Assembly: GCA_911728455.2 (NCBI GenBank)
Contig: OU452234.1
Coordinates: 11,866,031-11,930,030 of the forward strand
Origin: Marthasterias glacialis
Taxonomy: Eukaryota; Echinodermata; Asteroidea; Forcipulatida; Asteriidae
Direction of reading: 5' to 3'
DNA: 64,000 nt
Made by a program: the position numbers and the translations under genes. This document shows, piece by piece, positions 256-64,000 of this stretch (positions are counted from its first letter, which is position 1; each line of letters begins with the position of its first letter). A model generated the notes under the pieces. The model was not told the DNA's origin, ran no database searches, and was given only the letters and a program-made list of their open reading frames with translations.

Positions 256-279
256 AAATTTTAATTTTCGGACCCAACT

Positions 280-11349: not shown

Positions 11350-11651
11350 TTGATGACGTCAGAATTGACCCAATTTTTGCCACTTGCCCAAATATTGCGA
11401 ATTGACCCCTTCCCCGCACACAAACCCTCTTCAGTGATGTCTACTCTATCATTTTCTATCATAAAATCGCATCAAAAAAATTTTGATCAAAAGTGCCGGT
11501 GCTCACAGGGAGAAATTTTAATTTTCGGACCCAACTTGAAAAGTGCTTTTCATGGAATCAGTGGATGCGGGCGGCTCTTCCGAGACGTGTCCAACAAACT
11601 AGAGCTCCCAACTTGCAGTATTTCGGGAGCTAGCGAGCTTTTTCGGCCATC
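11350..11651. repeat. 302-bp monomer lacking one palindrome arm
   Basis: CTCACAGGGAG at 11502-11512 is followed directly by AAATTTT, so exactly the second 11-bp arm (CTCCCTGTGAG) is missing. The deletion is flanked by GAG on both sides, as expected of slippage across a hairpin or microhomology-mediated repair. The same copy has CATCAAAAAAA in place of CATAAAAAAAA. It is the only copy of this type in the window. Confidence 0.9.
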
Positions 11652-12903: not shown

Positions 12904-13217
12904 TTGATGACGTCAGAATTGACCCAATTTTTGCCACTTGCCCAAATATTGCGAATTGACCCCTTCCCCGCACACAAACCCTCTTCAGTGATGTCTACTC
13001 TATCATTTTCTATCATAAAATCGCATAAAAAAAAATTTTGATCAAAAGTGCCGGTGCTCACAGGGAGCTCCCTGTGAGAAATTTTAATTTTCGGACCCAA
13101 CTTGAAAAGTGCTTTTCATGGAATCAGTGGATGCGGGCGGCTCTTCCGAGACGTGTCCAACAAACTAGAGCTCCCACCTTGCAGTATTTCGGGAGCTAGC
13201 GAGCTTTTTCGGCTATC
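12904..13217. repeat. Isolated 314-bp (A9) monomer in the left segment
   Basis: The A-tract has nine A, as in the A class of the right segment. The next copy begins with GGCTATCTTG just before its anchor at 13218. The same combination, an A9 monomer followed by GGCTATCTTG, recurs at 46167/46481, 106 monomers away. Confidence 0.85.
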
Positions 13218-16200
13218 TTGATGACGTCAGAATTGACCCAATTTTTGCCACTTGCCCAAATATTGCGAATTGACCCCTTCCCCGCACACAAACCCTCTTC
13301 AGTGATGTCTACTCTATCATTTTCTATCATAAAATCGCATAAAAAAAATTTTGATCAAAAGTGCCGGTGCTCACAGGGAGCTCCCTGTGAGAAATTTTAA
13401 TTTTCGGACCCAACTTGAAAAGTGCTTTTCATGGAATCAGTGGATGCGGGCGGCTCTTCCGAGACGTGTCCAACAAACTAGAGCTCCCAACTTGCAGTAT
13501 TTCGGGAGCTAGCGAGCTTTTTCGGCCATCTTGATGACGTCAGAATTGACCCAATTTTTGCCACTTGCCCAAATATTGCGAATTGACCCCTTCCCCGCAC
13601 ACAAACCCTCTTCAGTGATGTCTACTCTATCATTTTCTATCATAAAATCGCATAAAAAAAATTTTGATCAAAAGTGCCGGTGCTCACAGGGAGCTCCCTG
13701 TGAGAAATTTTAATTTTCGGACCCAACTTGAAAAGTGCTTTTCATGGAATCAGTGGATGCGGGCGGCTCTTCCGAGACGTGTCCAACAAACTAGAGCTCC
13801 CAACTTGCAGTATTTCGGGAGCTAGCGAGCTTTTTCGGCCATCTTGATGACGTCAGAATTGACCCAATTTTTGCCACTTGCCCAAATATTGCGAATTGAC
13901 CCCTTCCCCGCACACAAACCCTCTTCAGTGATGTCTACTCTATCATTTTCTATCATAAAATCGCATAAAAAAAATTTTGATCAAAAGTGCCGGTGCTCAC
14001 AGGGAGCTCCCTGTGAGAAATTTTAATTTTCGGACCCAACTTGAAAAGTGCTTTTCATGGAATCAGTGGATGCGGGCGGCTCTTCCGAGACGTGTCCAAC
14101 AAACTAGAGCTCCCAACTTGCAGTATTTCGGGAGCTAGCGAGCTTTTTCGGCCATCTTGATGACGTCAGAATTGACCCAATTTTTGCCACTTGCCCAAAT
14201 ATTGCGAATTGACCCCTTCCCCGCACACAAACCCTCTTCAGTGATGTCTACTCTATCATTTTCTATCATAAAATCGCATAAAAAAAATTTTGATCAAAAG
14301 TGCCGGTGCTCACAGGGAGCTCCCTGTGAGAAATTTTAATTTTCGGACCCAACTTGAAAAGTGCTTTTCATGGAATCAGTGGATGCGGGCGGCTCTTCCG
14401 AGACGTGTCCAACAAACTAGAGCTCCCAACTTGCAGTATTTCGGGAGCTAGCGAGCTTTTTCGGCCATCTTGATGACGTCAGAATTGACCCAATTTTTGC
14501 CACTTGCCCAAATATTGCGAATTGACCCCTTCCCCGCACACAAACCCTCTTCAGTGATGTCTACTCTATCATTTTCTATCATAAAATCGCATAAAAAAAA
14601 TTTTGATCAAAAGTGCCGGTGCTCACAGGGAGCTCCCTGTGAGAAATTTTAATTTTCGGACCCAACTTGAAAAGTGCTTTTCATGGAATCAGTGGATGCG
14701 GGCGGCTCTTCCGAGACGTGTCCAACAAACTAGAGCTCCCAACTTGCAGTATTTCGGGAGCTAGCGAGCTTTTTCGGCCATCTTGATGACGTCAGAATTG
14801 ACCCAATTTTTGCCACTTGCCCAAATATTGCGAATTGACCCCTTCCCCGCACACAAACCCTCTTCAGTGATGTCTACTCTATCATTTTCTATCATAAAAT
14901 CGCATAAAAAAAATTTTGATCAAAAGTGCCGGTGCTCACAGGGAGCTCCCTGTGAGAAATTTTAATTTTCGGACCCAACTTGAAAAGTGCTTTTCATGGA
15001 ATCAGTGGATGCGGGCGGCTCTTCCGAGACGTGTCCAACAAACTAGAGCTCCCAACTTGCAGTATTTCGGGAGCTAGCGAGCTTTTTCGGCCATCTTGAT
15101 GACGTCAGAATTGACCCCATTTTTGCCACTTGCCCAAATATTGCGAATTGACCCCTTCCCCGCACACAAACCCTCTTCAGTGATGTCTACTCTATCATTT
15201 TCTATCATAAAATCGCATAAAAAAAATTTTGATCAAAAGTGCCGGTGCTCACAGGGAGCTCCCTGTGAGAAATTTTAATTTTCGGACCCAACTTGAAAAG
15301 TGCTTTTCATGGAATCAGTGGATGCGGGCGGCTCTTCCGAGACGTGTCCAACAAACTAGAGCTCCCAACTTGCAGTATTTCGGGAGCTAGCGAGCTTTTT
15401 CGGCCATCTTGATGACGTCAGAATTGACCCAATTTTTGCCACTTGCCCAAATATTGCGAATTGACCCCTTCCCCGCACACAAACCCTCTTCAGTGATGTC
15501 TACTCTATCATTTTCTATCATAAAATCGCATAAAAAAAATTTTGATCAAAAGTGCCGGTGCTCACAGGGAGCTCCCTGTGAGAAATTTTAATTTTCGGAC
15601 CCAACTTGAAAAGTGCTTTTCATGGAATCAGTGGATGCGGGCGGCTCTTCCGAGACGTGTCCAACAAACTAGAGCTCCCAACTTGCAGTATTTCGGGAGC
15701 TAGCGAGCTTTTTCGGCCATCTTGATGACGTCAGAATTGACCCAATTTTTGCCACTTGCCCAAATATTGCGAATTGACCCCTTCCCCGCACACAAACCCT
15801 CTTCAGTGATGTCTACTCTATCATTTTCTATCATAAAATCGCATAAAAAAAATTTTGATCAAAAGTGCCGGTGCTCACAGGGAGCTCCCTGTGAGAAATT
15901 TTAATTTTCGGACCCAACTTGAAAAGTGCTTTTCATGGAATCAGTGGATGCGGGCGGCTCTTCCGAGACGTGTCCAACAAACTAGAGCTCCCAACTTGCA
16001 GTATTTCGGGAGCTAGCGAGCTTTTTCGGCCATCTTGATGACGTCAGAATTGACCCAATTTTTGCCACTTGCCCAAATATTGCGAATTGACCCCTTCCCC
16101 GCACACAAACCCTCTTCAGTGATGTCTACTCTATCATTTTCTATCATAAAATCGCATAAAAAAAATTTTGATCAAAAGTGCCGGTGCTCACAGGGAGCTC

Positions 16201-28612: not shown

Positions 28613-28712
28613 NNNNNNNNNNNNNNNNNNNNNNNNNNNNNNNNNNNNNNNNNNNNNNNNNNNNNNNNNNNNNNNNNNNNNNNNNNNNNNNNNNNNNNNN
28701 NNNNNNNNNNNN
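28613..28712. other. Assembly gap of 100 N
   Basis: Exactly 100 N interrupt one monomer. The left flank stops at GCGAATTGAC and the right flank resumes at AGTGATG. In the consensus these are separated by 26 bp, so the flanks are in register if the true gap is 26 bp plus any whole number of 313-bp copies. One hundred N is a common placeholder for a gap of unknown size, so the array may be longer than shown. Confidence 0.98.
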
Positions 28713-39000: not shown

Positions 39001-41148
39001 TATTGCGAATTGACCCCTTCCCCGCACACAAACCCTCTTCAGTGATGTCTACTCTATCATTTTCTATCATAAAATCGCATAAAAAAAATTTTGATCAAAA
39101 GTGCCGGTGCTCACAGGGAGCTCCCTGTGAGAAATTTTAATTTTCGGACCCAACTTGAAAAGTGCTTTTCATGGAATCAGTGGATGCGGGCGGCTCTTCC
39201 GAGACGTGTCCAACAAACTAGAGCTCCCAACTTGCAGTATTTCGGGAGCTAGCGAGCTTTTTCGGCCATCTTGATGACGTCAGAATTGACCCAATTTTTG
39301 CCACTTGCCCAAATATTGCGAATTGACCCCTTCCCCGCACACAAACCCTCTTCAGTGATGTCTACTCTATCATTTTCTATCATAAAATCGCATAAAAAAA
39401 ATTTTGATCAAAAGTGCCGGTGCTCACAGGGAGCTCCCTGTGAGAAATTTTAATTTTCGGACCCAACTTGAAAAGTGCTTTTCATGGAATCAGTGGATGC
39501 GGGCGGCTCTTCCGAGACGTGTCCAACAAACTAGAGCTCCCAACTTGCAGTATTTCGGGAGCTAGCGAGCTTTTTCGGCCATCTTGATGACGTCAGAATT
39601 GACCCAATTTTTGCCACTTGCCCAAATATTGCGAATTGACCCCTTCCCCGCACACAAACCCTCTTCAGTGATGTCTACTCTATCATTTTCTATCATAAAA
39701 TCGCATAAAAAAAATTTTGATCAAAAGTGCCGGTGCTCACAGGGAGCTCCCTGTGAGAAATTTTAATTTTCGGACCCAACTTGAAAAGTGCTTTTCATGG
39801 AATCAGTGGATGCGGGCGGCTCTTCCGAGACGTGTCCAACAAACTAGAGCTCCCAACTTGCAGTATTTCGGGAGCTAGCGAGCTTTTTCGGCCATCTTGA
39901 TGACGTCAGAATTGACCCAATTTTTGCCACTTGCCCAAATATTGCGAATTGACCCCTTCCCCGCACACAAACCCTCTTCAGTGATGTCTACTCTATCATT
40001 TTCTATCATAAAATCGCATAAAAAAAATTTTGATCAAAAGTGCCGGTGCTCACAGGGAGCTCCCTGTGAGAAATTTTAATTTTCGGACCCAACTTGAAAA
40101 GTGCTTTTCATGGAATCAGTGGATGCGGGCGGCTCTTCCGAGACGTGTCCAACAAACTAGAGCTCCCAACTTGCAGTATTTCGGGAGCTAGCGAGCTTTT
40201 TCGGCCATCTTGATGACGTCAGAATTGACCCAATTTTTGCCACTTGCCCAAATATTGCGAATTGACCCCTTCCCCGCACACAAACCCTCTTCAGTGATGT
40301 CTACTCTATCATTTTCTATCATAAAATCGCATAAAAAAAATTTTGATCAAAAGTGCCGGTGCTCACAGGGAGCTCCCTGTGAGAAATTTTAATTTTCGGA
40401 CCCAACTTGAAAAGTGCTTTTCATGGAATCAGTGGATGCGGGCGGCTCTTCCGAGACGTGTCCAACAAACTAGAGCTCCCAACTTGCAGTATTTCGGGAG
40501 CTAGCGAGCTTTTTCGGCCATCTTGATGACGTCAGAATTGACCCAATTTTTGCCACTTGCCCAAATATTGCGAATTGACCCCTTCCCCGCACACAAACCC
40601 TCTTCAGTGATGTCTACTCTATCATTTTCTATCATAAAATCGCATAAAAAAAATTTTGATCAAAAGTGCCGGTGCTCACAGGGAGCTCCCTGTGAGAAAT
40701 TTTAATTTTCGGACCCAACTTGAAAAGTGCTTTTCATGGAATCAGTGGATGCGGGCGGCTCTTCCGAGACGTGTCCAACAAACTAGAGCTCCCAACTTGC
40801 AGTATTTCGGGAGCTAGCGAGCTTTTTCGGCCATCTTGATGACGTCAGAATTGACCCAATTTTTGCCACTTGCCCAAATATTGCGAATTGACCCCTTCCC
40901 CGCACACAAACCCTCTTCAGTGATGTCTACTCTATCATTTTCTATCATAAAATCGCATAAAAAAAATTTTGATCAAAAGTGCCGGTGCTCACAGGGAGCT
41001 CCCTGTGAGAAATTTTAATTTTCGGACCCAACTTGAAAAGTGCTTTTCATGGAATCAGTGGATGCGGGCGGCTCTTCCGAGACGTGTCCAACAAACTAGA
41101 GCTCCCAACTTGCAGTATTTCGGGAGCTAGCGAGCTTTTTCGGCCATC

Positions 41149-41463
41149 TTGATGACGTCAGAATTGACCCAATTTTTGCCACTTGCCCAAATATTGCGAA
41201 TTGACCCCTTCCCCGCACACAAACCCTCTTCAGTGATGTCTACTCTATCATTTTCTATCATAAAATCGCATAAAAAAAAAATTTTGATCAAAAGTGCCGG
41301 TGCTCACAGGGAGCTCCCTGTGAGAAATTTTAATTTTCGGACCCAACTTGAAAAGTGCTTTTCATGGAATCAGTGGATGCGGGCGGCTCTTCCGAGACGT
41401 GTCCAACAAACTAGAGCTCCCAACTTGCAGTATTTCGGGAGCTAGCGAGCTTTTTCGGCCATC
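41149..41463. repeat. 315-bp (A10) monomer
   Basis: The A-tract has ten A. The same form recurs at 42090-42404, three monomers to the right, and nowhere else that I saw. Confidence 0.85.
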
Positions 41464-42089
41464 TTGATGACGTCAGAATTGACCCAATTTTTGCCACTTG
41501 CCCAAATATTGCGAATTGACCCCTTCCCCGCACACAAACCCTCTTCAGTGATGTCTACTCTATCATTTTCTATCATAAAATCGCATAAAAAAAATTTTGA
41601 TCAAAAGTGCCGGTGCTCACAGGGAGCTCCCTGTGAGAAATTTTAATTTTCGGACCCAACTTGAAAAGTGCTTTTCATGGAATCAGTGGATGCGGGCGGC
41701 TCTTCCGAGACGTGTCCAACAAACTAGAGCTCCCAACTTGCAGTATTTCGGGAGCTAGCGAGCTTTTTCGGCCATCTTGATGACGTCAGAATTGACCCAA
41801 TTTTTGCCACTTGCCCAAATATTGCGAATTGACCCCTTCCCCGCACACAAACCCTCTTCAGTGATGTCTACTCTATCATTTTCTATCATAAAATCGCATA
41901 AAAAAAATTTTGATCAAAAGTGCCGGTGCTCACAGGGAGCTCCCTGTGAGAAATTTTAATTTTCGGACCCAACTTGAAAAGTGCTTTTCATGGAATCAGT
42001 GGATGCGGGCGGCTCTTCCGAGACGTGTCCAACAAACTAGAGCTCCCAACTTGCAGTATTTCGGGAGCTAGCGAGCTTTTTCGGCCATC

Positions 42090-42404
42090 TTGATGACGTC
42101 AGAATTGACCCAATTTTTGCCACTTGCCCAAATATTGCGAATTGACCCCTTCCCCGCACACAAACCCTCTTCAGTGATGTCTACTCTATCATTTTCTATC
42201 ATAAAATCGCATAAAAAAAAAATTTTGATCAAAAGTGCCGGTGCTCACAGGGAGCTCCCTGTGAGAAATTTTAATTTTCGGACCCAACTTGAAAAGTGCT
42301 TTTCATGGAATCAGTGGATGCGGGCGGCTCTTCCGAGACGTGTCCAACAAACTAGAGCTCCCAACTTGCAGTATTTCGGGAGCTAGCGAGCTTTTTCGGC
42401 CATC
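42090..42404. repeat. 315-bp (A10) monomer, second copy
   Basis: It is identical in type to the copy at 41149. The three-monomer spacing matches the inner rhythm of the higher-order repeat further right. Confidence 0.85.
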
Positions 42405-45400: not shown

Positions 45401-45848
45401 TTTAATTTTCGGACCCAACTTGAAAAGTGCTTTTCATGGAATCAGTGGATGCGGGCGGCTCTTCCGAGACGTGTCCAACAAACTAGAGCTCCCAACTTGC
45501 AGTATTTCGGGAGCTAGCGAGCTTTTTCGGCCATCTTGATGACGTCAGAATTGACCCAATTTTTGCCACTTGCCCAAATATTGCGAATTGACCCCTTCCC
45601 CGCACACAAACCCTCTTCAGTGATGTCTACTCTATCATTTTCTATCATAAAATCGCATAAAAAAAATTTTGATCAAAAGTGCCGGTGCTCACAGGGAGCT
45701 CCCTGTGAGAAATTTTAATTTTCGGACCCAACTTGAAAAGTGCTTTTCATGGAATCAGTGGATGCGGGCGGCTCTTCCGAGACGTGTCCAACAAACTAGA
45801 GCTCCCAACTTGCAGTATTTCGGGAGCTAGCGAGCTTTTTCGGCCATC

Positions 45849-46166
45849 TTGATGACGTCAGAATTGACCCAATTTTTGCCACTTGCCCAAATATTGCGAA
45901 TTGACCCCTTCCCCGCACACAAACCCTCTTCAGTGATGTCTACTCTATCATTAATTTTTCTATCATAAAATCGCATAAAAAAAATTTTGATCAAAAGTGC
46001 CGGTGCTCACAGGGAGCTCCCTGTGAGAAATTTTAATTTTCGGACCCAACTTGAAAAGTGCTTTTCATGGAATCAGTGGATGCGGGCGGCTCTTCCGAGA
46101 CGTGTCCAACAAACTAGAGCTCCCAACTTGCAGTATTTCGGGAGCTAGCGAGCTTTTTCGGCCATC
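45849..46166. repeat. 318-bp monomer with 5-bp insertion
   Basis: Between the two CTATCAT motifs, CTATCATTAATTTTTCTATC replaces the usual spacing, adding five bases around 45953-45957. The added TAATTTT resembles a motif elsewhere in the monomer. It is the only copy of this type seen. Confidence 0.88.
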
Positions 46167-49136
46167 TTGATGACGTCAGAATTGACCCAATTTTTGCCAC
46201 TTGCCCAAATATTGCGAATTGACCCCTTCCCCGCACACAAACCCTCTTCAGTGATGTCTACTCTATCATTTTCTATCATAAAATCGCATAAAAAAAAATT
46301 TTGATCAAAAGTGCCGGTGCTCACAGGGAGCTCCCTGTGAGAAATTTTAATTTTCGGACCCAACTTGAAAAGTGCTTTTCATGGAATCAGTGGATGCGGG
46401 CGGCTCTTCCGAGACGTGTCCAACAAACTAGAGCTCCCAACTTGCAGTATTTCGGGAGCTAGCGAGCTTTTTCGGCTATCTTGATGACGTCAGAATTGAC
46501 CCAATTTTTGCCACTTGCCCAAATATTGCGAATTGACCCCTTCCCCGCACACAAACCCTCTTCAGTGATGTCTACTCTATCATTTTCTATCATAAAATCG
46601 CATAAAAAAAATTTTGATCAAAAGTGCCGGTGCTCACAGGGAGCTCCCTGTGAGAAATTTTAATTTTCGGACCCAACTTGAAAAGTGCTTTTCATGGAAT
46701 CAGTGGATGCGGGCGGCTCTTCCGAGACGTGTCCAACAAACTAGAGCTCCCAACTTGCAGTATTTCGGGAGCTAGCGAGCTTTTTCGGCCATCTTGATGA
46801 CGTCAGAATTGACCCAATTTTTGCCACTTGCCCAAATATTGCGAATTGACCCCTTCCCCGCACACAAACCCTCTTCAGTGATGTCTACTCTATCATTTTC
46901 TATCATAAAATCGCATAAAAAAAATTTTGATCAAAAGTGCCGGTGCTCACAGGGAGCTCCCTGTGAGAAATTTTAATTTTCGGACCCAACTTGAAAAGTG
47001 CTTTTCATGGAATCAGTGGATGCGGGCGGCTCTTCCGAGACGTGTCCAACAAACTAGAGCTCCCAACTTGCAGTATTTCGGGAGCTAGCGAGCTTTTTCG
47101 GCCATCTTGATGACGTCAGAATTGACCCAATTTTTGCCACTTGCCCAAATATTGCGAATTGACCCCTTCCCCGCACACAAACCCTCTTCAGTGATGTCTA
47201 CTCTATCATTTTCTATCATAAAATCGCATAAAAAAAATTTTGATCAAAAGTGCCGGTGCTCACAGGGAGCTCCCTGTGAGAAATTTTAATTTTCGGACCC
47301 AACTTGAAAAGTGCTTTTCATGGAATCAGTGGATGCGGGCGGCTCTTCCGAGACGTGTCCAACAAACTAGAGCTCCCAACTTGCAGTATTTCGGGAGCTA
47401 GCGAGCTTTTTCGGCCATCTTGATGACGTCAGAATTGACCCAATTTTTGCCACTTGCCCAAATATTGCGAATTGACCCCTTCCCCGCACACAAACCCTCT
47501 TCAGTGATGTCTACTCTATCATTTTCTATCATAAAATCGCATAAAAAAAATTTTGATCAAAAGTGCCGGTGCTCACAGGGAGCTCCCTGTGAGAAATTTT
47601 AATTTTCGGACCCAACTTGAAAAGTGCTTTTCATGGAATCAGTGGATGCGGGCGGCTCTTCCGAGACGTGTCCAACAAACTAGAGCTCCCAACTTGCAGT
47701 ATTTCGGGAGCTAGCGAGCTTTTTCGGCCATCTTGATGACGTCAGAATTGACCCAATTTTTGCCACTTGCCCAAATATTGCGAATTGACCCCTTCCCCGC
47801 ACACAAACCCTCTTCAGTGATGTCTACTCTATCATTTTCTATCATAAAATCGCATAAAAAAAATTTTGATCAAAAGTGCCGGTGCTCACAGGGAGCTCCC
47901 TGTGAGAAATTTTAATTTTCGGACCCAACTTGAAAAGTGCTTTTCATGGAATCAGTGGATGCGGGCGGCTCTTCCGAGACGTGTCCAACAAACTAGAGCT
48001 CCCAACTTGCAGTATTTCGGGAGCTAGCGAGCTTTTTCGGCCATCTTGATGACGTCAGAATTGACCCAATTTTTGCCACTTGCCCAAATATTGCGAATTG
48101 ACCCCTTCCCCGCACACAAACCCTCTTCAGTGATGTCTACTCTATCATTTTCTATCATAAAATCGCATAAAAAAAATTTTGATCAAAAGTGCCGGTGCTC
48201 ACAGGGAGCTCCCTGTGAGAAATTTTAATTTTCGGACCCAACTTGAAAAGTGCTTTTCATGGAATCAGTGGATGCGGGCGGCTCTTCCGAGACGTGTCCA
48301 ACAAACTAGAGCTCCCAACTTGCAGTATTTCGGGAGCTAGCGAGCTTTTTCGGCCATCTTGATGACGTCAGAATTGACCCAATTTTTGCCACTTGCCCAA
48401 ATATTGCGAATTGACCCCTTCCCCGCACACAAACCCTCTTCAGTGATGTCTACTCTATCATTTTCTATCATAAAATCGCATAAAAAAAATTTTGATCAAA
48501 AGTGCCGGTGCTCACAGGGAGCTCCCTGTGAGAAATTTTAATTTTCGGACCCAACTTGAAAAGTGCTTTTCATGGAATCAGTGGATGCGGGCGGCTCTTC
48601 CGAGACGTGTCCAACAAACTAGAGCTCCCAACTTGCAGTATTTCGGGAGCTAGCGAGCTTTTTCGGCCATCTTGATGACGTCAGAATTGACCCAATTTTT
48701 GCCACTTGCCCAAATATTGCGAATTGACCCCTTCCCCGCACACAAACCCTCTTCAGTGATGTCTACTCTATCATTTTCTATCATAAAATCGCATAAAAAA
48801 AATTTTGATCAAAAGTGCCGGTGCTCACAGGGAGCTCCCTGTGAGAAATTTTAATTTTCGGACCCAACTTGAAAAGTGCTTTTCATGGAATCAGTGGATG
48901 CGGGCGGCTCTTCCGAGACGTGTCCAACAAACTAGAGCTCCCAACTTGCAGTATTTCGGGAGCTAGCGAGCTTTTTCGGCCATCTTGATGACGTCAGAAT
49001 TGACCCAATTTTTGCCACTTGCCCAAATATTGCGAATTGACCCCTTCCCCGCACACAAACCCTCTTCAGTGATGTCTACTCTATCATTTTCTATCATAAA
49101 ATCGCATAAAAAAAATTTTGATCAAAAGTGCCGGTG

Positions 49137-49154
49137 CTCACAGCTCCCTGTGAG
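49137..49154. repeat. D-type shortened palindrome, copy 1
   Basis: CTCACAG is followed directly by CTCCCTGTGAG, so GGAG has been lost and the monomer is 309 bp. The loss lies between two AG dinucleotides and destroys the central GAGCTC. Identical forms at six other sites imply one deletion that was then copied. Confidence 0.92.
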
Positions 49155-49758
49155 AAATTTTAATTTTCGGACCCAACTTGAAAAGTGCTTTTCATGGAAT
49201 CAGTGGATGCGGGCGGCTCTTCCGAGACGTGTCCAACAAACTAGAGCTCCCAACTTGCAGTATTTCGGGAGCTAGCGAGCTTTTTCGGCCATCTTGATGA
49301 CGTCAGAATTGACCCAATTTTTGCCACTTGCCCAAATATTGCGAATTGACCCCTTCCCCGCACACAAACCCTCTTCAGTGATGTCTACTCTATCATTTTC
49401 TATCATAAAATCGCATAAAAAAAATTTTGATCAAAAGTGCCGGTGCTCACAGGGAGCTCCCTGTGAGAAATTTTAATTTTCGGACCCAACTTGAAAAGTG
49501 CTTTTCATGGAATCAGTGGATGCGGGCGGCTCTTCCGAGACGTGTCCAACAAACTAGAGCTCCCAACTTGCAGTATTTCGGGAGCTAGCGAGCTTTTTCG
49601 GCCATCTTGATGACGTCAGAATTGACCCAATTTTTGCCACTTGCCCAAATATTGCGAATTGACCCCTTCCCCGCACACAAACCCTCTTCAGTGATGTCTA
49701 CTCTATCATTTTCTATCATAAAATCGCATAAAAAAAATTTTGATCAAAAGTGCCGGTG

Positions 49759-49776
49759 CTCACAGCTCCCTGTGAG
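49759..49776. repeat. D-type shortened palindrome, copy 2
   Basis: This is the same 4-bp loss, two monomers after the first, giving a D-N-D motif. Confidence 0.92.
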
Positions 49777-52260
49777 AAATTTTAATTTTCGGACCCAACT
49801 TGAAAAGTGCTTTTCATGGAATCAGTGGATGCGGGCGGCTCTTCCGAGACGTGTCCAACAAACTAGAGCTCCCAACTTGCAGTATTTCGGGAGCTAGCGA
49901 GCTTTTTCGGCCATCTTGATGACGTCAGAATTGACCCAATTTTTGCCACTTGCCCAAATATTGCGAATTGACCCCTTCCCCGCACACAAACCCTCTTCAG
50001 TGATGTCTACTCTATCATTTTCTATCATAAAATCGCATAAAAAAAATTTTGATCAAAAGTGCCGGTGCTCACAGGGAGCTCCCTGTGAGAAATTTTAATT
50101 TTCGGACCCAACTTGAAAAGTGCTTTTCATGGAATCAGTGGATGCGGGCGGCTCTTCCGAGACGTGTCCAACAAACTAGAGCTCCCAACTTGCAGTATTT
50201 CGGGAGCTAGCGAGCTTTTTCGGCCATCTTGATGACGTCAGAATTGACCCAATTTTTGCCACTTGCCCAAATATTGCGAATTGACCCCTTCCCCGCACAC
50301 AAACCCTCTTCAGTGATGTCTACTCTATCATTTTCTATCATAAAATCGCATAAAAAAAAATTTTGATCAAAAGTGCCGGTGCTCACAGGGAGCTCCCTGT
50401 GAGAAATTTTAATTTTCGGACCCAACTTGAAAAGTGCTTTTCATGGAATCAGTGGATGCGGGCGGCTCTTCCGAGACGTGTCCAACAAACTAGAGCTCCC
50501 AACTTGCAGTATTTCGGGAGCTAGCGAGCTTTTTCGGCCATCTTGATGACGTCAGAATTGACCCAATTTTTGCCACTTGCCCAAATATTGCGAATTGACC
50601 CCTTCCCCGCACACAAACCCTCTTCAGTGATGTCTACTCTATCATTTTCTATCATAAAATCGCATAAAAAAAAATTTTGATCAAAAGTGCCGGTGCTCAC
50701 AGGGAGCTCCCTGTGAGAAATTTTAATTTTCGGACCCAACTTGAAAAGTGCTTTTCATGGAATCAGTGGATGCGGGCGGCTCTTCCGAGACGTGTCCAAC
50801 AAACTAGAGCTCCCAACTTGCAGTATTTCGGGAGCTAGCGAGCTTTTTCGGCCATCTTGATGACGTCAGAATTGACCCAATTTTTGCCACTTGCCCAAAT
50901 ATTGCGAATTGACCCCTTCCCCGCACACAAACCCTCTTCAGTGATGTCTACTCTATCATTTTCTATCATAAAATCGCATAAAAAAAATTTTGATCAAAAG
51001 TGCCGGTGCTCACAGGGAGCTCCCTGTGAGAAATTTTAATTTTCGGACCCAACTTGAAAAGTGCTTTTCATGGAATCAGTGGATGCGGGCGGCTCTTCCG
51101 AGACGTGTCCAACAAACTAGAGCTCCCAACTTGCAGTATTTCGGGAGCTAGCGAGCTTTTTCGGCCATCTTGATGACGTCAGAATTGACCCAATTTTTGC
51201 CACTTGCCCAAATATTGCGAATTGACCCCTTCCCCGCACACAAACCCTCTTCAGTGATGTCTACTCTATCATTTTCTATCATAAAATCGCATAAAAAAAA
51301 TTTTGATCAAAAGTGCCGGTGCTCACAGGGAGCTCCCTGTGAGAAATTTTAATTTTCGGACCCAACTTGAAAAGTGCTTTTCATGGAATCAGTGGATGCG
51401 GGCGGCTCTTCCGAGACGTGTCCAACAAACTAGAGCTCCCAACTTGCAGTATTTCGGGAGCTAGCGAGCTTTTTCGGCCATCTTGATGACGTCAGAATTG
51501 ACCCAATTTTTGCCACTTGCCCAAATATTGCGAATTGACCCCTTCCCCGCACACAAACCCTCTTCAGTGATGTCTACTCTATCATTTTCTATCATAAAAT
51601 CGCATAAAAAAAATTTTGATCAAAAGTGCCGGTGCTCACAGGGAGCTCCCTGTGAGAAATTTTAATTTTCGGACCCAACTTGAAAAGTGCTTTTCATGGA
51701 ATCAGTGGATGCGGGCGGCTCTTCCGAGACGTGTCCAACAAACTAGAGCTCCCAACTTGCAGTATTTCGGGAGCTAGCGAGCTTTTTCGGCCATCTTGAT
51801 GACGTCAGAATTGACCCAATTTTTGCCACTTGCCCAAATATTGCGAATTGACCCCTTCCCCGCACACAAACCCTCTTCAGTGATGTCTACTCTATCATTT
51901 TCTATCATAAAATCGCATAAAAAAAATTTTGATCAAAAGTGCCGGTGCTCACAGGGAGCTCCCTGTGAGAAATTTTAATTTTCGGACCCAACTTGAAAAG
52001 TGCTTTTCATGGAATCAGTGGATGCGGGCGGCTCTTCCGAGACGTGTCCAACAAACTAGAGCTCCCAACTTGCAGTATTTCGGGAGCTAGCGAGCTTTTT
52101 CGGCCATCTTGATGACGTCAGAATTGACCCAATTTTTGCCACTTGCCCAAATATTGCGAATTGACCCCTTCCCCGCACACAAACCCTCTTCAGTGATGTC
52201 TACTCTATCATTTTCTATCATAAAATCGCATAAAAAAAATTTTGATTAAAAGTGCCGGTG

Positions 52261-52278
52261 CTCACAGCTCCCTGTGAG
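52261..52278. repeat. D-type shortened palindrome, copy 3
   Basis: This is the same 4-bp loss. The monomer also has a private GATTAAAA at about 52244-52251, which breaks the TTTTGATCAAAA palindrome. Confidence 0.92.
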
Positions 52279-53044
52279 AAATTTTAATTTTCGGACCCAA
52301 CTTGAAAAGTGCTTTTCATGGAATCAGTGGATGCGGGCGGCTCTTCCGAGACGTGTCCAACAAACTAGAGCTCCCAACTTGCAGTATTTCGGGAGCTAGC
52401 GAGCTTTTTCGGCCATCTTGATGACGTCAGAATTGACCCAATTTTTGCCACTTGCCCAAATATTGCGAATTGACCCCTTCCCCGCACACAAACCCTCTTC
52501 AGTGATGTCTACTCTATCATTTTCTATCATAAAATCGCATAAAAAAAATTTTGATCAAAAGTGCCGGTGCTCACAGGGAGCTCCCTGTGAGAAATTTTAA
52601 TTTTCGGACCCAACTTGAAAAGTGCTTTTCATGGAATCAGTGGATGCGGGCGGCTCTTCCGAGACGTGTCCAACAAACTAGAGCTCCCAACTTGCAGTAT
52701 TTCGGGAGCTAGCGAGCTTTTTCGGCCATCTTGATGACGTCAGAATTGACCCAATTTTTGCCACTTGCCCAAATATTGCGAATTGACCCCTTCCCCGCAC
52801 ACAAACCCTCTTCAGTGATGTCTACTCTATCATTTTCTATCATAAAATCGCATAAAAAAAAATTTTGATCAAAAGTGCCGGTGCTCACAGGGAGCTCCCT
52901 GTGAGAAATTTTAATTTTCGGACCCAACTTGAAAAGTGCTTTTCATGGAATCAGTGGATGCGGGCGGCTCTTCCGAGACGTGTCCAACAAACTAGAGCTC
53001 CCAACTTGCAGTATTTCGGGAGCTAGCGAGCTTTTTCGGCCATC

Positions 53045-55548
53045 TTGATGACGTCAGAATTGACCCAATTTTTGCCACTTGCCCAAATATTGCGAATTGA
53101 CCCCTTCCCCGCACACAAACCCTCTTCAGTGATGTCTACTCTATCATTTTCTATCATAAAATCGCATAAAAAAAATTTTGATCAAAAGTGCCGGTGCTCA
53201 CAGGGAGCTCCCTGTGAGAAATTTTAATTTTCGGACCCAACTTGAAAAGTGCTTTTCATGGAATCAGTGGATGCGGGCGGCTCTTCCGAGACGTGTCCAA
53301 CAAACTAGAGCTCCCAACTTGCAGTATTTCGGGAGCTAGCGAGCTTTTTCGGCCATCTTGATGACGTCAGAATTGACCCAATTTTTGCCACTTGCCCAAA
53401 TATTGCGAATTGACCCCTTCCCCGCACACAAACCCTCTTCAGTGATGTCTACTCTATCATTTTCTATCATAAAATCGCATAAAAAAAAATTTTGATCAAA
53501 AGTGCCGGTGCTCACAGGGAGCTCCCTGTGAGAAATTTTAATTTTCGGACCCAACTTGAAAAGTGCTTTTCATGGAATCAGTGGATGCGGGCGGCTCTTC
53601 CGAGACGTGTCCAACAAACTAGAGCTCCCAACTTGCAGTATTTCGGGAGCTAGCGAGCTTTTTCGGCCATCTTGATGACGTCAGAATTGACCCAATTTTT
53701 GCCACTTGCCCAAATATTGCGAATTGACCCCTTCCCCGCACACAAACCCTCTTCAGTGATGTCTACTCTATCATTTTCTATCATAAAATCGCATAAAAAA
53801 AAATTTTGATCAAAAGTGCCGGTGCTCACAGGGAGCTCCCTGTGAGAAATTTTAATTTTCGGACCCAACTTGAAAAGTGCTTTTCATGGAATCAGTGGAT
53901 GCGGGCGGCTCTTCCGAGACGTGTCCAACAAACTAGAGCTCCCAACTTGCAGTATTTCGGGAGCTAGCGAGCTTTTTCGGCCATCTTGATGACGTCAGAA
54001 TTGACCCAATTTTTGCCACTTGCCCAAATATTGCGAATTGACCCCTTCCCCGCACACAAACCCTCTTCAGTGATGTCTACTCTATCATTTTCTATCATAA
54101 AATCGCATAAAAAAAATTTTGATCAAAAGTGCCGGTGCTCACAGGGAGCTCCCTGTGAGAAATTTTAATTTTCGGACCCAACTTGAAAAGTGCTTTTCAT
54201 GGAATCAGTGGATGCGGGCGGCTCTTCCGAGACGTGTCCAACAAACTAGAGCTCCCAACTTGCAGTATTTCGGGAGCTAGCGAGCTTTTTCGGCCATCTT
54301 GATGACGTCAGAATTGACCCAATTTTTGCCACTTGCCCAAATATTGCGAATTGACCCCTTCCCCGCACACAAACCCTCTTCAGTGATGTCTACTCTATCA
54401 TTTTCTATCATAAAATCGCATAAAAAAAAATTTTGATCAAAAGTGCCGGTGCTCACAGGGAGCTCCCTGTGAGAAATTTTAATTTTCGGACCCAACTTGA
54501 AAAGTGCTTTTCATGGAATCAGTGGATGCGGGCGGCTCTTCCGAGACGTGTCCAACAAACTAGAGCTCCCAACTTGCAGTATTTCGGGAGCTAGCGAGCT
54601 TTTTCGGCCATCTTGATGACGTCAGAATTGACCCAATTTTTGCCACTTGCCCAAATATTGCGAATTGACCCCTTCCCCGCACACAAACCCTCTTCAGTGA
54701 TGTCTACTCTATCATTTTCTATCATAAAATCGCATAAAAAAAAATTTTGATCAAAAGTGCCGGTGCTCACAGGGAGCTCCCTGTGAGAAATTTTAATTTT
54801 CGGACCCAACTTGAAAAGTGCTTTTCATGGAATCAGTGGATGCGGGCGGCTCTTCCGAGACGTGTCCAACAAACTAGAGCTCCCAACTTGCAGTATTTCG
54901 GGAGCTAGCGAGCTTTTTCGGCCATCTTGATGACGTCAGAATTGACCCAATTTTTGCCACTTGCCCAAATATTGCGAATTGACCCCTTCCCCGCACACAA
55001 ACCCTCTTCAGTGATGTCTACTCTATCATTTTCTATCATAAAATCGCATAAAAAAAATTTTGATCAAAAGTGCCGGTGCTCACAGGGAGCTCCCTGTGAG
55101 AAATTTTAATTTTCGGACCCAACTTGAAAAGTGCTTTTCATGGAATCAGTGGATGCGGGCGGCTCTTCCGAGACGTGTCCAACAAACTAGAGCTCCCAAC
55201 TTGCAGTATTTCGGGAGCTAGCGAGCTTTTTCGGCCATCTTGATGACGTCAGAATTGACCCAATTTTTGCCACTTGCCCAAATATTGCGAATTGACCCCT
55301 TCCCCGCACACAAACCCTCTTCAGTGATGTCTACTCTATCATTTTCTATCATAAAATCGCATAAAAAAAATTTTGATCAAAAGTGCCGGTGCTCACAGCT
55401 CCCTGTGAGAAATTTTAATTTTCGGACCCAACTTGAAAAGTGCTTTTCATGGAATCAGTGGATGCGGGCGGCTCTTCCGAGACGTGTCCAACAAACTAGA
55501 GCTCCCAACTTGCAGTATTTCGGGAGCTAGCGAGCTTTTTCGGCCATC
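53045..55548. repeat. Higher-order repeat unit, copy 1 (NAANAAND, 2504 bp)
   Basis: Eight monomers anchored at 53045, 53358, 53672, 53986, 54299, 54613, 54927 and 55240 have lengths 313, 314, 314, 313, 314, 314, 313 and 309. The same order returns to the right, so the eight together form a second-level repeat of 2504 bp. It also holds an inner 3-monomer rhythm (N A A N A A). Confidence 0.88.
55392..55409. repeat. D-type shortened palindrome, copy 4
   Basis: This is the same 4-bp loss, at the last position of higher-order unit copy 1. Confidence 0.92.
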
Positions 55549-58365
55549 TTGATGACGTCAGAATTGACCCAATTTTTGCCACTTGCCCAAATATTGCGAA
55601 TTGACCCCTTCCCCGCACACAAACCCTCTTCAGTGATGTCTACTCTATCATTTTCTATCATAAAATCGCATAAAAAAAATTTTGATCAAAAGTGCCGGTG
55701 CTCACAGGGAGCTCCCTGTGAGAAATTTTAATTTTCGGACCCAACTTGAAAAGTGCTTTTCATGGAATCAGTGGATGCGGGCGGCTCTTCCGAGACGTGT
55801 CCAACAAACTAGAGCTCCCAACTTGCAGTATTTCGGGAGCTAGCGAGCTTTTTCGGCCATCTTGATGACGTCAGAATTGACCCAATTTTTGCCACTTGCC
55901 CAAATATTGCGAATTGACCCCTTCCCCGCACACAAACCCTCTTCAGTGATGTCTACTCTATCATTTTCTATCATAAAATCGCATAAAAAAAAATTTTGAT
56001 CAAAAGTGCCGGTGCTCACAGGGAGCTCCCTGTGAGAAATTTTAATTTTCGGACCCAACTTGAAAAGTGCTTTTCATGGAATCAGTGGATGCGGGCGGCT
56101 CTTCCGAGACGTGTCCAACAAACTAGAGCTCCCAACTTGCAGTATTTCGGGAGCTAGCGAGCTTTTTCGGCCATCTTGATGACGTCAGAATTGACCCAAT
56201 TTTTGCCACTTGCCCAAATATTGCGAATTGACCCCTTCCCCGCACACAAACCCTCTTCAGTGATGTCTACTCTATCATTTTCTATCATAAAATCGCATAA
56301 AAAAAAATTTTGATCAAAAGTGCCGGTGCTCACAGGGAGCTCCCTGTGAGAAATTTTAATTTTCGGACCCAACTTGAAAAGTGCTTTTCATGGAATCAGT
56401 GGATGCGGGCGGCTCTTCCGAGACGTGTCCAACAAACTAGAGCTCCCAACTTGCAGTATTTCGGGAGCTAGCGAGCTTTTTCGGCCATCTTGATGACGTC
56501 AGAATTGACCCAATTTTTGCCACTTGCCCAAATATTGCGAATTGACCCCTTCCCCGCACACAAACCCTCTTCAGTGATGTCTACTCTATCATTTTCTATC
56601 ATAAAATCGCATAAAAAAAATTTTGATCAAAAGTGCCGGTGCTCACAGGGAGCTCCCTGTGAGAAATTTTAATTTTCGGACCCAACTTGAAAAGTGCTTT
56701 TCATGGAATCAGTGGATGCGGGCGGCTCTTCCGAGACGTGTCCAACAAACTAGAGCTCCCAACTTGCAGTATTTCGGGAGCTAGCGAGCTTTTTCGGCCA
56801 TCTTGATGACGTCAGAATTGACCCAATTTTTGCCACTTGCCCAAATATTGCGAATTGACCCCTTCCCCGCACACAAACCCTCTTCAGTGATGTCTACTCT
56901 ATCATTTTCTATCATAAAATCGCATAAAAAAAAATTTTGATCAAAAGTGCCGGTGCTCACAGGGAGCTCCCTGTGAGAAATTTTAATTTTCGGACCCAAC
57001 TTGAAAAGTGCTTTTCATGGAATCAGTGGATGCGGGCGGCTCTTCCGAGACGTGTCCAACAAACTAGAGCTCCCAACTTGCAGTATTTCGGGAGCTAGCG
57101 AGCTTTTTCGGCCATCTTGATGACGTCAGAATTGACCCAATTTTTGCCACTTGCCCAAATATTGCGAATTGACCCCTTCCCCGCACACAAACCCTCTTCA
57201 GTGATGTCTACTCTATCATTTTCTATCATAAAATCGCATAAAAAAAAATTTTGATCAAAAGTGCCGGTGCTCACAGGGAGCTCCCTGTGAGAAATTTTAA
57301 TTTTCGGACCCAACTTGAAAAGTGCTTTTCATGGAATCAGTGGATGCGGGCGGCTCTTCCGAGACGTGTCCAACAAACTAGAGCTCCCAACTTGCAGTAT
57401 TTCGGGAGCTAGCGAGCTTTTTCGGCCATCTTGATGACGTCAGAATTGACCCAATTTTTGCCACTTGCCCAAATATTGCGAATTGACCCCTTCCCCGCAC
57501 ACAAACCCTCTTCAGTGATGTCTACTCTATCATTTTCTATCATAAAATCGCATAAAAAAAATTTTGATCAAAAGTGCCGGTGCTCACAGGGAGCTCCCTG
57601 TGAGAAATTTTAATTTTCGGACCCAACTTGAAAAGTGCTTTTCATGGAATCAGTGGATGCGGGCGGCTCTTCCGAGACGTGTCCAACAAACTAGAGCTCC
57701 CAACTTGCAGTATTTCGGGAGCTAGCGAGCTTTTTCGGCCATCTTGATGACGTCAGAATTGACCCAATTTTTGCCACTTGCCCAAATATTGCGAATTGAC
57801 CCCTTCCCCGCACACAAACCCTCTTCAGTGATGTCTACTCTATCATTTTCTATCATAAAATCGCATAAAAAAAATTTTGATCAAAAGTGCCGGTGCTCAC
57901 AGGGAGCTCCCTGTGAGAAATTTTAATTTTCGGACCCAACTTGAAAAGTGCTTTTCATGGAATCAGTGGATGCGGGCGGCTCTTCCGAGACGTGTCCAAC
58001 AAACTAGAGCTCCCAACTTGCAGTATTTCGGGAGCTAGCGAGCTTTTTCGGCCATCTTGATGACGTCAGAATTGACCCAATTTTTGCCACTTGCCCAAAT
58101 ATTGCGAATTGACCCCTTCCCCGCACACAAACCCTCTTCAGTGATGTCTACTCTATCATTTTCTATCATAAAATCGCATAAAAAAAATTTTGATCAAAAG
58201 TGCCGGTGCTCACAGCTCCCTGTGAGAAATTTTAATTTTCGGACCCAACTTGAAAAGTGCTTTTCATGGAATCAGTGGATGCGGGCGGCTCTTCCGAGAC
58301 GTGTCCAACAAACTAGAGCTCCCAACTTGCAGTATTTCGGGAGCTAGCGAGCTTTTTCGGCCATC
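55549..58365. repeat. Higher-order repeat unit, copy 2 with one extra monomer
   Basis: Anchors 55549 to 58057 read N A A N A A N N D. The unit is the 8-mer with one additional 313-bp monomer before the D copy, 2817 bp in all. An out-of-register exchange by a single monomer would explain it. Confidence 0.85.
58209..58226. repeat. D-type shortened palindrome, copy 5
   Basis: This is the same 4-bp loss, at the last position of the 9-monomer higher-order unit. Confidence 0.92.
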
Positions 58366-58987
58366 TTGATGACGTCAGAATTGACCCAATTTTTGCCACT
58401 TGCCCAAATATTGCGAATTGACCCCTTCCCCGCACACAAACCCTCTTCAGTGATGTCTACTCTATCATTTTCTATCATAAAATCGCATAAAAAAAATTTT
58501 GATCAAAAGTGCCGGTGCTCACAGGGAGCTCCCTGTGAGAAATTTTAATTTTCGGACCCAACTTGAAAAGTGCTTTTCATGGAATCAGTGGATGCGGGCG
58601 GCTCTTCCGAGACGTGTCCAACAAACTAGAGCTCCCAACTTGCAGTATTTCGGGAGCTAGCGAGCTTTTTCGGCCATCTTGATGACGTCAGAATTGACCC
58701 AATTTTTGCCACTTGCCCAAATATTGCGAATTGACCCCTTCCCCGCACACAAACCCTCTTCAGTGATGTCTACTCTATCATTTTCTATCATAAAATCGCA
58801 TAAAAAAAATTTTGATCAAAAGTGCCGGTGCTCACAGCTCCCTGTGAGAAATTTTAATTTTCGGACCCAACTTGAAAAGTGCTTTTCATGGAATCAGTGG
58901 ATGCGGGCGGCTCTTCCGAGACGTGTCCAACAAACTAGAGCTCCCAACTTGCAGTATTTCGGGAGCTAGCGAGCTTTTTCGGCCATC
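58366..58987. repeat. Two-monomer N-D insert between higher-order units
   Basis: The copies anchored at 58366 (313 bp) and 58679 (309 bp) form a short N-D pair between two full units. With the D copy at 58057 it makes a D-N-D motif that also occurs at 48985-49915. Confidence 0.85.
58831..58848. repeat. D-type shortened palindrome, copy 6
   Basis: This is the same 4-bp loss, forming a second D-N-D motif with copy 5. Confidence 0.92.
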
Positions 58988-61491
58988 TTGATGACGTCAG
59001 AATTGACCCAATTTTTGCCACTTGCCCAAATATTGCGAATTGACCCCTTCCCCGCACACAAACCCTCTTCAGTGATGTCTACTCTATCATTTTCTATCAT
59101 AAAATCGCATAAAAAAAATTTTGATCAAAAGTGCCGGTGCTCACAGGGAGCTCCCTGTGAGAAATTTTAATTTTCGGACCCAACTTGAAAAGTGCTTTTC
59201 ATGGAATCAGTGGATGCGGGCGGCTCTTCCGAGACGTGTCCAACAAACTAGAGCTCCCAACTTGCAGTATTTCGGGAGCTAGCGAGCTTTTTCGGCCATC
59301 TTGATGACGTCAGAATTGACCCAATTTTTGCCACTTGCCCAAATATTGCGAATTGACCCCTTCCCCGCACACAAACCCTCTTCAGTGATGTCTACTCTAT
59401 CATTTTCTATCATAAAATCGCATAAAAAAAAATTTTGATCAAAAGTGCCGGTGCTCACAGGGAGCTCCCTGTGAGAAATTTTAATTTTCGGACCCAACTT
59501 GAAAAGTGCTTTTCATGGAATCAGTGGATGCGGGCGGCTCTTCCGAGACGTGTCCAACAAACTAGAGCTCCCAACTTGCAGTATTTCGGGAGCTAGCGAG
59601 CTTTTTCGGCCATCTTGATGACGTCAGAATTGACCCAATTTTTGCCACTTGCCCAAATATTGCGAATTGACCCCTTCCCCGCACACAAACCCTCTTCAGT
59701 GATGTCTACTCTATCATTTTCTATCATAAAATCGCATAAAAAAAAATTTTGATCAAAAGTGCCGGTGCTCACAGGGAGCTCCCTGTGAGAAATTTTAATT
59801 TTCGGACCCAACTTGAAAAGTGCTTTTCATGGAATCAGTGGATGCGGGCGGCTCTTCCGAGACGTGTCCAACAAACTAGAGCTCCCAACTTGCAGTATTT
59901 CGGGAGCTAGCGAGCTTTTTCGGCCATCTTGATGACGTCAGAATTGACCCAATTTTTGCCACTTGCCCAAATATTGCGAATTGACCCCTTCCCCGCACAC
60001 AAACCCTCTTCAGTGATGTCTACTCTATCATTTTCTATCATAAAATCGCATAAAAAAAATTTTGATCAAAAGTGCCGGTGCTCACAGGGAGCTCCCTGTG
60101 AGAAATTTTAATTTTCGGACCCAACTTGAAAAGTGCTTTTCATGGAATCAGTGGATGCGGGCGGCTCTTCCGAGACGTGTCCAACAAACTAGAGCTCCCA
60201 ACTTGCAGTATTTCGGGAGCTAGCGAGCTTTTTCGGCCATCTTGATGACGTCAGAATTGACCCAATTTTTGCCACTTGCCCAAATATTGCGAATTGACCC
60301 CTTCCCCGCACACAAACCCTCTTCAGTGATGTCTACTCTATCATTTTCTATCATAAAATCGCATAAAAAAAAATTTTGATCAAAAGTGCCGGTGCTCACA
60401 GGGAGCTCCCTGTGAGAAATTTTAATTTTCGGACCCAACTTGAAAAGTGCTTTTCATGGAATCAGTGGATGCGGGCGGCTCTTCCGAGACGTGTCCAACA
60501 AACTAGAGCTCCCAACTTGCAGTATTTCGGGAGCTAGCGAGCTTTTTCGGCCATCTTGATGACGTCAGAATTGACCCAATTTTTGCCACTTGCCCAAATA
60601 TTGCGAATTGACCCCTTCCCCGCACACAAACCCTCTTCAGTGATGTCTACTCTATCATTTTCTATCATAAAATCGCATAAAAAAAAATTTTGATCAAAAG
60701 TGCCGGTGCTCACAGGGAGCTCCCTGTGAGAAATTTTAATTTTCGGACCCAACTTGAAAAGTGCTTTTCATGGAATCAGTGGATGCGGGCGGCTCTTCCG
60801 AGACGTGTCCAACAAACTAGAGCTCCCAACTTGCAGTATTTCGGGAGCTAGCGAGCTTTTTCGGCCATCTTGATGACGTCAGAATTGACCCAATTTTTGC
60901 CACTTGCCCAAATATTGCGAATTGACCCCTTCCCCGCACACAAACCCTCTTCAGTGATGTCTACTCTATCATTTTCTATCATAAAATCGCATAAAAAAAA
61001 TTTTGATCAAAAGTGCCGGTGCTCACAGGGAGCTCCCTGTGAGAAATTTTAATTTTCGGACCCAACTTGAAAAGTGCTTTTCATGGAATCAGTGGATGCG
61101 GGCGGCTCTTCCGAGACGTGTCCAACAAACTAGAGCTCCCAACTTGCAGTATTTCGGGAGCTAGCGAGCTTTTTCGGCCATCTTGATGACGTCAGAATTG
61201 ACCCAATTTTTGCCACTTGCCCAAATATTGCGAATTGACCCCTTCCCCGCACACAAACCCTCTTCAGTGATGTCTACTCTATCATTTTCTATCATAAAAT
61301 CGCATAAAAAAAATTTTGATCAAAAGTGCCGGTGCTCACAGCTCCCTGTGAGAAATTTTAATTTTCGGACCCAACTTGAAAAGTGCTTTTCATGGAATCA
61401 GTGGATGCGGGCGGCTCTTCCGAGACGTGTCCAACAAACTAGAGCTCCCAACTTGCAGTATTTCGGGAGCTAGCGAGCTTTTTCGGCCATC
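58988..61491. repeat. Higher-order repeat unit, copy 3 (NAANAAND, 2504 bp)
   Basis: Anchors 58988, 59301, 59615, 59929, 60242, 60556, 60870 and 61183 reproduce the lengths and order of copy 1 exactly, and the total of 2504 bp is the same. Confidence 0.88.
61335..61352. repeat. D-type shortened palindrome, copy 7
   Basis: This is the same 4-bp loss, at the last position of higher-order unit copy 3. Confidence 0.92.
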
Positions 61492-63670
61492 TTGATGACG
61501 TCAGAATTGACCCAATTTTTGCCACTTGCCCAAATATTGCGAATTGACCCCTTCCCCGCACACAAACCCTCTTCAGTGATGTCTACTCTATCATTTTCTA
61601 TCATAAAATCGCATAAAAAAAATTTTGATCAAAAGTGCCGGTGCTCACAGGGAGCTCCCTGTGAGAAATTTTAATTTTCGGACCCAACTTGAAAAGTGCT
61701 TTTCATGGAATCAGTGGATGCGGGCGGCTCTTCCGAGACGTGTCCAACAAACTAGAGCTCCCAACTTGCAGTATTTCGGGAGCTAGCGAGCTTTTTCGGC
61801 CATCTTGATGACGTCAGAATTGACCCAATTTTTGCCACTTGCCCAAATATTGCGAATTGACCCCTTCCCCGCACACAAACCCTCTTCAGTGATGTCTACT
61901 CTATCATTTTCTATCATAAAATCGCATAAAAAAAAATTTTGATCAAAAGTGCCGGTGCTCACAGGGAGCTCCCTGTGAGAAATTTTAATTTTCGGACCCA
62001 ACTTGAAAAGTGCTTTTCATGGAATCAGTGGATGCGGGCGGCTCTTCCGAGACGTGTCCAACAAACTAGAGCTCCCAACTTGCAGTATTTCGGGAGCTAG
62101 CGAGCTTTTTCGGCCATCTTGATGACGTCAGAATTGACCCAATTTTTGCCACTTGCCCAAATATTGCGAATTGACCCCTTCCCCGCACACAAACCCTCTT
62201 CAGTGATGTCTACTCTATCATTTTCTATCATAAAATCGCATAAAAAAAAATTTTGATCAAAAGTGCCGGTGCTCACAGGGAGCTCCCTGTGAGAAATTTT
62301 AATTTTCGGACCCAACTTGAAAAGTGCTTTTCATGGAATCAGTGGATGCGGGCGGCTCTTCCGAGACGTGTCCAACAAACTAGAGCTCCCAACTTGCAGT
62401 ATTTCGGGAGCTAGCGAGCTTTTTCGGCCATCTTGATGACGTCAGAATTGACCCAATTTTTGCCACTTGCCCAAATATTGCGAATTGACCCCTTCCCCGC
62501 ACACAAACCCTCTTCAGTGATGTCTACTCTATCATTTTCTATCATAAAATCGCATAAAAAAAATTTTGATCAAAAGTGCCGGTGCTCACAGGGAGCTCCC
62601 TGTGAGAAATTTTAATTTTCGGACCCAACTTGAAAAGTGCTTTTCATGGAATCAGTGGATGCGGGCGGCTCTTCCGAGACGTGTCCAACAAACTAGAGCT
62701 CCCAACTTGCAGTATTTCGGGAGCTAGCGAGCTTTTTCGGCCATCTTGATGACGTCAGAATTGACCCAATTTTTGCCACTTGCCCAAATATTGCGAATTG
62801 ACCCCTTCCCCGCACACAAACCCTCTTCAGTGATGTCTACTCTATCATTTTCTATCATAAAATCGCATAAAAAAAAATTTTGATCAAAAGTGCCGGTGCT
62901 CACAGGGAGCTCCCTGTGAGAAATTTTAATTTTCGGACCCAACTTGAAAAGTGCTTTTCATGGAATCAGTGGATGCGGGCGGCTCTTCCGAGACGTGTCC
63001 AACAAACTAGAGCTCCCAACTTGCAGTATTTCGGGAGCTAGCGAGCTTTTTCGGCCATCTTGATGACGTCAGAATTGACCCAATTTTTGCCACTTGCCCA
63101 AATATTGCGAATTGACCCCTTCCCCGCACACAAACCCTCTTCAGTGATGTCTACTCTATCATTTTCTATCATAAAATCGCATAAAAAAAAATTTTGATCA
63201 AAAGTGCCGGTGCTCACAGGGAGCTCCCTGTGAGAAATTTTAATTTTCGGACCCAACTTGAAAAGTGCTTTTCATGGAATCAGTGGATGCGGGCGGCTCT
63301 TCCGAGACGTGTCCAACAAACTAGAGCTCCCAACTTGCAGTATTTCGGGAGCTAGCGAGCTTTTTCGGCCATCTTGATGACGTCAGAATTGACCCAATTT
63401 TTGCCACTTGCCCAAATATTGCGAATTGACCCCTTCCCCGCACACAAACCCTCTTCAGTGATGTCTACTCTATCATTTTCTATCATAAAATCGCATAAAA
63501 AAAATTTTGATCAAAAGTGCCGGTGCTCACAGGGAGCTCCCTGTGAGAAATTTTAATTTTCGGACCCAACTTGAAAAGTGCTTTTCATGGAATCAGTGGA
63601 TGCGGGCGGCTCTTCCGAGACGTGTCCAACAAACTAGAGCTCCCAACTTGCAGTATTTCGGGAGCTAGCG
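61492..63670. repeat. Higher-order repeat unit, copy 4, truncated at the array end
   Basis: Anchors 61492, 61805, 62119, 62433, 62746, 63060 and 63374 read N A A N A A N, the first seven positions of the 8-mer. The array stops 11 bases short of the anchor where the eighth (D) monomer would begin. Confidence 0.86.
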
Positions 63671-64000
63671 CCTATCTATTTTTTCTCCCTCCAAATGAAA
63701 CACCCCCGCACTTTTGTTGAAGTCCGCGCATCAATCTTGAAAATGTCCCTACACCTCTTGTCAAATAGGACCTCTCTTTGCAGGGCCTAGGTCATCCAAA
63801 ATACTCAAAGTTAGAAGTCAAAAACCCGCAGGTCACAATTGTTCAATGTTTTAACAACCCATCACCCTGTTTTTGGTTCTTAAATCTGTATAGTATTAAA
63901 TATTTTGAGGGCATACAAAATATTCATGAGCCCGTTGCACTTTTCCCTCCCTATTCCGTGTGATGCGCCAATGTGCACAGACAGACATAGTCTTGGATCT
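63671..64000. other. Non-satellite flanking DNA, no supported gene
   Basis: Satellite identity stops after GGAGCTAGCG at 63670, and the following 330 bp share nothing obvious with the monomer. The sequence is AT-leaning with pyrimidine-rich stretches (TTTTTTCTCCCTCC, CCTCTCTTTGCAG). One forward frame is open from about 63769 to the TGA at 63961-63963, but it has no ATG at its start. CTCTCTTTGCAG followed by GG at 63784 could be a 3' splice acceptor preceding a short exon, yet nothing else supports a gene. I recognise no domain in the translation and no RNA gene here. Confidence 0.85.
63899..63924. repeat. Small inverted repeat AATATTTTG / CAAAATATT
   Basis: Two perfect 9-bp arms (63899-63907 and 63916-63924) surround the 8-base spacer AGGGCATA in the flanking DNA. 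It may be chance in AT-rich sequence, or the remnant of a small repeat. There is no T run after it, so it does not look like a terminator. Confidence 0.5.

Follow-up and report, generated by a model that had tools for sequence, protein, structure and literature searches.

An incipient or local higher-order repeat at the edge of a 313-bp satellite array in Marthasterias glacialis

Higher-order repeats (HORs) of satellite monomers have been described in root-knot nematodes of the genus Meloidogyne (PMC3694981), in the mouse minor satellite (PMC10880262) and in poplar, willow (Salicaceae) and Arabidopsis (PMC12046899). They are thus documented well outside the primates, whose alpha satellite had been put forward as their best-known home in an earlier note on the DNA studied here. 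Two routes to HORs have been published, out-of-register sister exchange and break-induced replication (PMC8997354), and RAD52 and PIF1 are needed for arrays to change in human cells (PMC11034957).

The window we have studied is a stretch of 64,000 nt from Marthasterias glacialis (contig OU452234.1, forward strand). About 203 monomers of a satellite are visible in it, and the array runs on past its left end. The array was cut at a fixed anchor and each monomer was aligned to the commonest one, which gives the following layout:

1-63670: 313-bp satellite array (TRF rows 1-28612 and 28713-63670, 99% matches; monomer cut)
1-13449: SNV-rich left zone, 43 monomers with 58 SNVs
13450-48903: near-invariant core, 101 of its 112 readable monomers being identical to the consensus
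28613-28712: assembly gap of 100 N, inside the near-invariant core
48904-63670: indel-marked edge zone, DNDNAANNNNDNANAANAANDNAANAANNDNDNAANAANDNAANAAN plus 65 bp
63671-64000: flanking DNA of 330 bp, not related to the monomer (blastn, Rfam)

At the gap 28613-28712 the two sides of the array are offset in phase by 26 bases plus any number of monomers. The array ends sharply at 63670/63671, where the last complete monomer shows no decay. Comparison of the flank (63671-64000) with the monomer by blastn gave only chance-level matches, and the last monomers together with the flank had no match in Rfam. The 330 bp of visible flank would fit an insertion into the array as well as a true array end. 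The monomer does not behave as an internal dimer, its autocorrelation at half length being not strong. Open reading frames in the array are short and none of them reads on through it. Pieces of the monomer had no match in exact scans of prokaryote genomes and viral contigs, nor in plasmids by blastn. Nothing in the array points to a function other than that of satellite DNA. One monomer of 318 bp (45768-46085) carries TTAAT inserted at monomer position 183, the sole case in the window.

The edge zone contains 47 complete monomers, spanning 48904-63605, in the order DNDNAANNNNDNANAANAANDNAANAANNDNDNAANAANDNAANAAN. In this string N is the consensus monomer of 313 bp. Class A has a tract of nine A's, not eight, at monomer position 205 (314 bp), while class D lacks AGGG at monomer positions 239-242 (309 bp). 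The D monomer at 52028 also carries a private SNV. Two SacI sites (GAGCTC) are present in N monomers, at monomer positions 32 and 242, but only one in D monomers; the predicted fragments are 210 and 103 bp for N and 309 bp for D. These are the two small indels by which the earlier note had defined its units, and both were recovered in the 47 complete monomers.

The D deletion falls within a perfect 22-bp palindrome at monomer positions 234-255, CTCACAGGGAGCTCCCTGTGAG. The same palindrome is affected in a 302-bp monomer at 11269-11570, which has an 11-bp deletion of GAGCTCCCTGT, flanked by GAG. The palindrome appears prone to deletion; both losses would fit slippage aided by a hairpin, with microhomology of 2-3 bp. 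The A mark is concentrated in the edge zone: 19 of its 46 readable monomers have a tract other than A8, versus 5 of the preceding 147 (Fisher p about 1e-9, with 47 monomers counted for the zone). Other homopolymers of 4-5 bases in the monomer hardly vary. Such a concentration next to steady neighbours speaks against a uniform homopolymer error. Random noise in the A8/A9 calls, which the earlier note had named as the possible undoing of its claim, does not fit in so far as it would be uniform, and noise of that uniform kind we have rejected.

The monomer cut and alignment give the following units in the edge zone:

53045-55548: complete unit NAANAAND (monomers of 313, 314, 314, 313, 314, 314, 313 and 309 bp)
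55549-58365: unit NAANAANND, with one extra N
58366-58987: N-D pair between units
58988-61491: complete unit NAANAAND
61492-63670: unit NAANAAN, cut at the array end, its last monomer incomplete

The module N-A-A-N-A-A-N occurs four times in the edge zone. Independent recovery of the monomer classes reproduced exactly all the unit coordinates and monomer lengths reported before, and the units then listed are right; the N-D pair had been left out of that list, and the marked zone starts earlier, at 48904. A recurrence of D every eight monomers, also claimed, is not found: successive D monomers are 2, 8, 10, 9, 2 and 8 monomers apart. As a side observation, an A10 tract is present in two monomers within 41068-42323, which are three monomers apart, the spacing of NAA.

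Longer blocks of the edge zone are repeated without any change:

52893-57727: longest exact repeat, upstream copy, 4835 bp with no difference; period 5943 bp, 19 monomers
58836-63670: longest exact repeat, downstream copy, 4835 bp; it stops at the array end
48591-51300: 2710-bp exact repeat, upstream copy; period 9072 bp, 29 monomers
57663-60372: 2710-bp exact repeat, downstream copy; period 9072 bp, 29 monomers

Altogether the exact repeats have periods of 941, 2504, 5943 and 9072 bp. The shortest corresponds to the three monomers NAA and is nested within the edge-zone repeats. An exact 2504-bp period extends over 52893-57902 (2.0 copies) and over 58214-63670 (2.2 copies). Two exact upstream blocks cover the whole of the terminal 6008 bp of the array. 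The second level of amplification proposed earlier is real. Its description as a 2504-bp HOR holds in part: NAANAAND is found where it had been placed, but never in more than about 2.2 uninterrupted copies, and the longest exact repeat has the 5943-bp period. The structure consists of nested duplications of 3, 8, 19 and 29 monomers and is only loosely a 2504-bp HOR. Blocks of seven to nineteen monomers have thus been duplicated side by side in recent time.

The order of the monomers was compared with chance in 20,000 trials for each model. When the 47-letter string is shuffled, a 15-letter block recurs in 2 trials, and no trial yields four NAANAAN. With a first-order Markov model based on the string, the 15-letter repeat is reached in 110 trials and four NAANAAN in 27. 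We conclude from these results that the order in the edge zone is not random noise. A second-order model matches the observed order often (4833 and 11454 trials, respectively), because N-A-A-N is already encoded in it. Once N-A-A-N is granted, the remaining order is less remarkable.

The edge block agrees in part with the general definition of a HOR. Distinguishable monomers recur in the same order beyond chance, as a 15-monomer exact block and as four NAANAAN. Copies of the units are more alike than neighbouring monomers: they are identical over 2.5-4.8 kb, while neighbours within the units are set apart by the A and D indels. The general definition also implies numerous tandem copies with a constant period, which are not present here, since the 2504-bp period attains 2.0 and 2.2 copies and the spacing of D is uneven. 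The edge block is an incipient or local HOR, not a HOR array. The CENP-B box core TTCGN4AN2CGGG, expected in some monomers of a primate-type centromeric HOR, has no match on either strand. Taken alone, the block is what satellite turnover ordinarily produces. Its interest lies in a youth that leaves the single duplication steps (3, 8, 19 and 29 monomers) still legible, which is rare in mature HORs. Given other individuals or array ends, it could be used as a test of unequal exchange versus break-induced replication.

A second HOR-like structure is present in the left zone, more than 50 kb from the array boundary:

4070-5947: older six-monomer block, first copy (276C, 41T, 244A, 276C, 41T+190G, 276C)
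7512-9390: older six-monomer block, second copy, 11 monomers on (about 3.44 kb), with private differences

The lag-11 order in the left zone has a permutation p of 0.001 (largest-lag p 0.023). This 11-monomer duplication is older and decayed, so that multimonomer duplication is not confined to the boundary but recurrent in the array. The copies in the edge zone are identical and therefore young. A zone younger than the core is a different matter, and is not supported: there is 1 SNV in 47 monomers of the edge zone versus 6 in 112 of the core, a difference which is not significant (Fisher p 0.68). The "very young" amplification of the earlier note is supported by the identity of the copies, but has no support as an age below that of the core.

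We consider it likely that the edge zone represents an early, irregular stage of HOR formation in a young satellite array, by out-of-register block copying of marked monomers. Replication slippage would have added a ninth A to the A8 tract, and the 4-bp deletion would have arisen within the perfect 22-bp palindrome. The marked monomers would then have been copied in multimonomer blocks, either by unequal sister-chromatid exchange or by break-induced replication. What is observed are the marks and the exact repeats with their periods; the route of repair and the sequence of events are what we infer from them. The order may have been an NAA trimer, then the NAANAAND 8-mer and then a block of about 19-29 monomers with a loss of 10 monomers. 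The last step could be a 29-monomer duplication plus the 10-monomer loss, or a separate 19-monomer duplication. Slippage in the A tract can recur, so that the A marks may not all descend from one event, and the D mark might also be recurrent, the palindrome having been deleted at least twice. It also counts against this explanation that the array end is read from the assembly alone, with one gap in the array. When block duplication and deletion were simulated under neutrality, with variants supplied in modest numbers, such modules formed in a large share of the arrays (range 3 to 90%), the parameters being arbitrary. As these HOR-like modules appear in the simulation without any edge effect, the edge need not have a driver of its own.

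Other origins of the edge zone have been considered. Array segments could have been duplicated or mis-joined in the assembly, with the A marks as homopolymer miscalls. Near-identical monomers are hard to assemble, the array does hold a gap of 100 N, and A8/A9 is a homopolymer call. However the A9 tracts are gathered in one zone, in step with an independent 4-bp deletion, homopolymers nearby hardly vary and the edge zone is anchored in a unique-looking flank. Moreover its periods of 2.5-6 kb are shorter than the usual long reads, which also argues against an artefact. We consider this origin unlikely. Even less credit can be given to the idea that the palindrome is a protein-binding site and that selection keeps D alternating with N in order to space it, as with the CENP-B boxes in alpha satellite. 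D does disrupt a perfect 22-bp palindrome, which might plausibly be a protein site or a hairpin, but the CENP-B box core is absent on both strands and D monomers are only 7 of about 200, irregularly spaced. We find such selection hardly believable.

The edge itself could also be the preferential site of re-copying, so that HORs would be born at the junction with non-satellite DNA and not in the centre of the array. The youngest visible block stops exactly at the array end, in contrast with human chromosome 8, whose youngest HOR occupies the centre, with old monomers towards the edges (PMC8997354). If true, the order would be opposite to the layered expansion described in human centromeres. Yet a single visible edge is an anecdote, the older ordered block lies more than 50 kb away, the edge zone is not measurably younger than the core and the neutral simulation works without an edge effect. 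A boundary-driven birth of HORs thus appears very improbable, though less so than selection, and the earlier proposal that amplification began next to the boundary is not supported, in view of the distant 11-monomer duplication and of the simulation. Out-of-register block copying remains our preferred explanation.

Human alpha satellite, with monomers of 171 bp, resembles the edge zone in its ordered multimonomer blocks, which are re-copied in tandem as near-identical copies, and in their nesting. Its HOR monomers are many substitutions apart, whereas here two small indels separate them; its HOR units have very many copies and the 8-mer at most 2.2. The youngest human block is central (chromosome 8, PMC8997354) and the young block found here is at the edge. 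The CENP-B box of alpha satellite has no counterpart in the present array. Meloidogyne has simple and higher-order arrays from one satellite library, outside primates, and its long and short HOR variants are one monomer apart (PMC3694981), as is the case for units in the edge zone. However its neighbouring monomers are 32-86% identical (PMC3694981), here about 99%, and a CENP-B-box-like motif has been reported (PMC3694981), whereas a search here for the strict core pattern gave none. The subtelomeric satellite X43.1 of Silene latifolia (PMC3212565) has the same monomer length, a 313-bp consensus. Identity with it was rejected: the published 50-base probe 12H5 (PMC3212565) shares only 8-base chance matches with the monomer. 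The centromeric and non-centromeric satellites of Arabidopsis (CEN178) and Salicaceae differ from the 313-bp monomer in sequence and length, but their HORs (PMC12046899) are the closest in kind: local, short-range, low-copy blocks, recognized by the order of monomers, in a homogeneous array.
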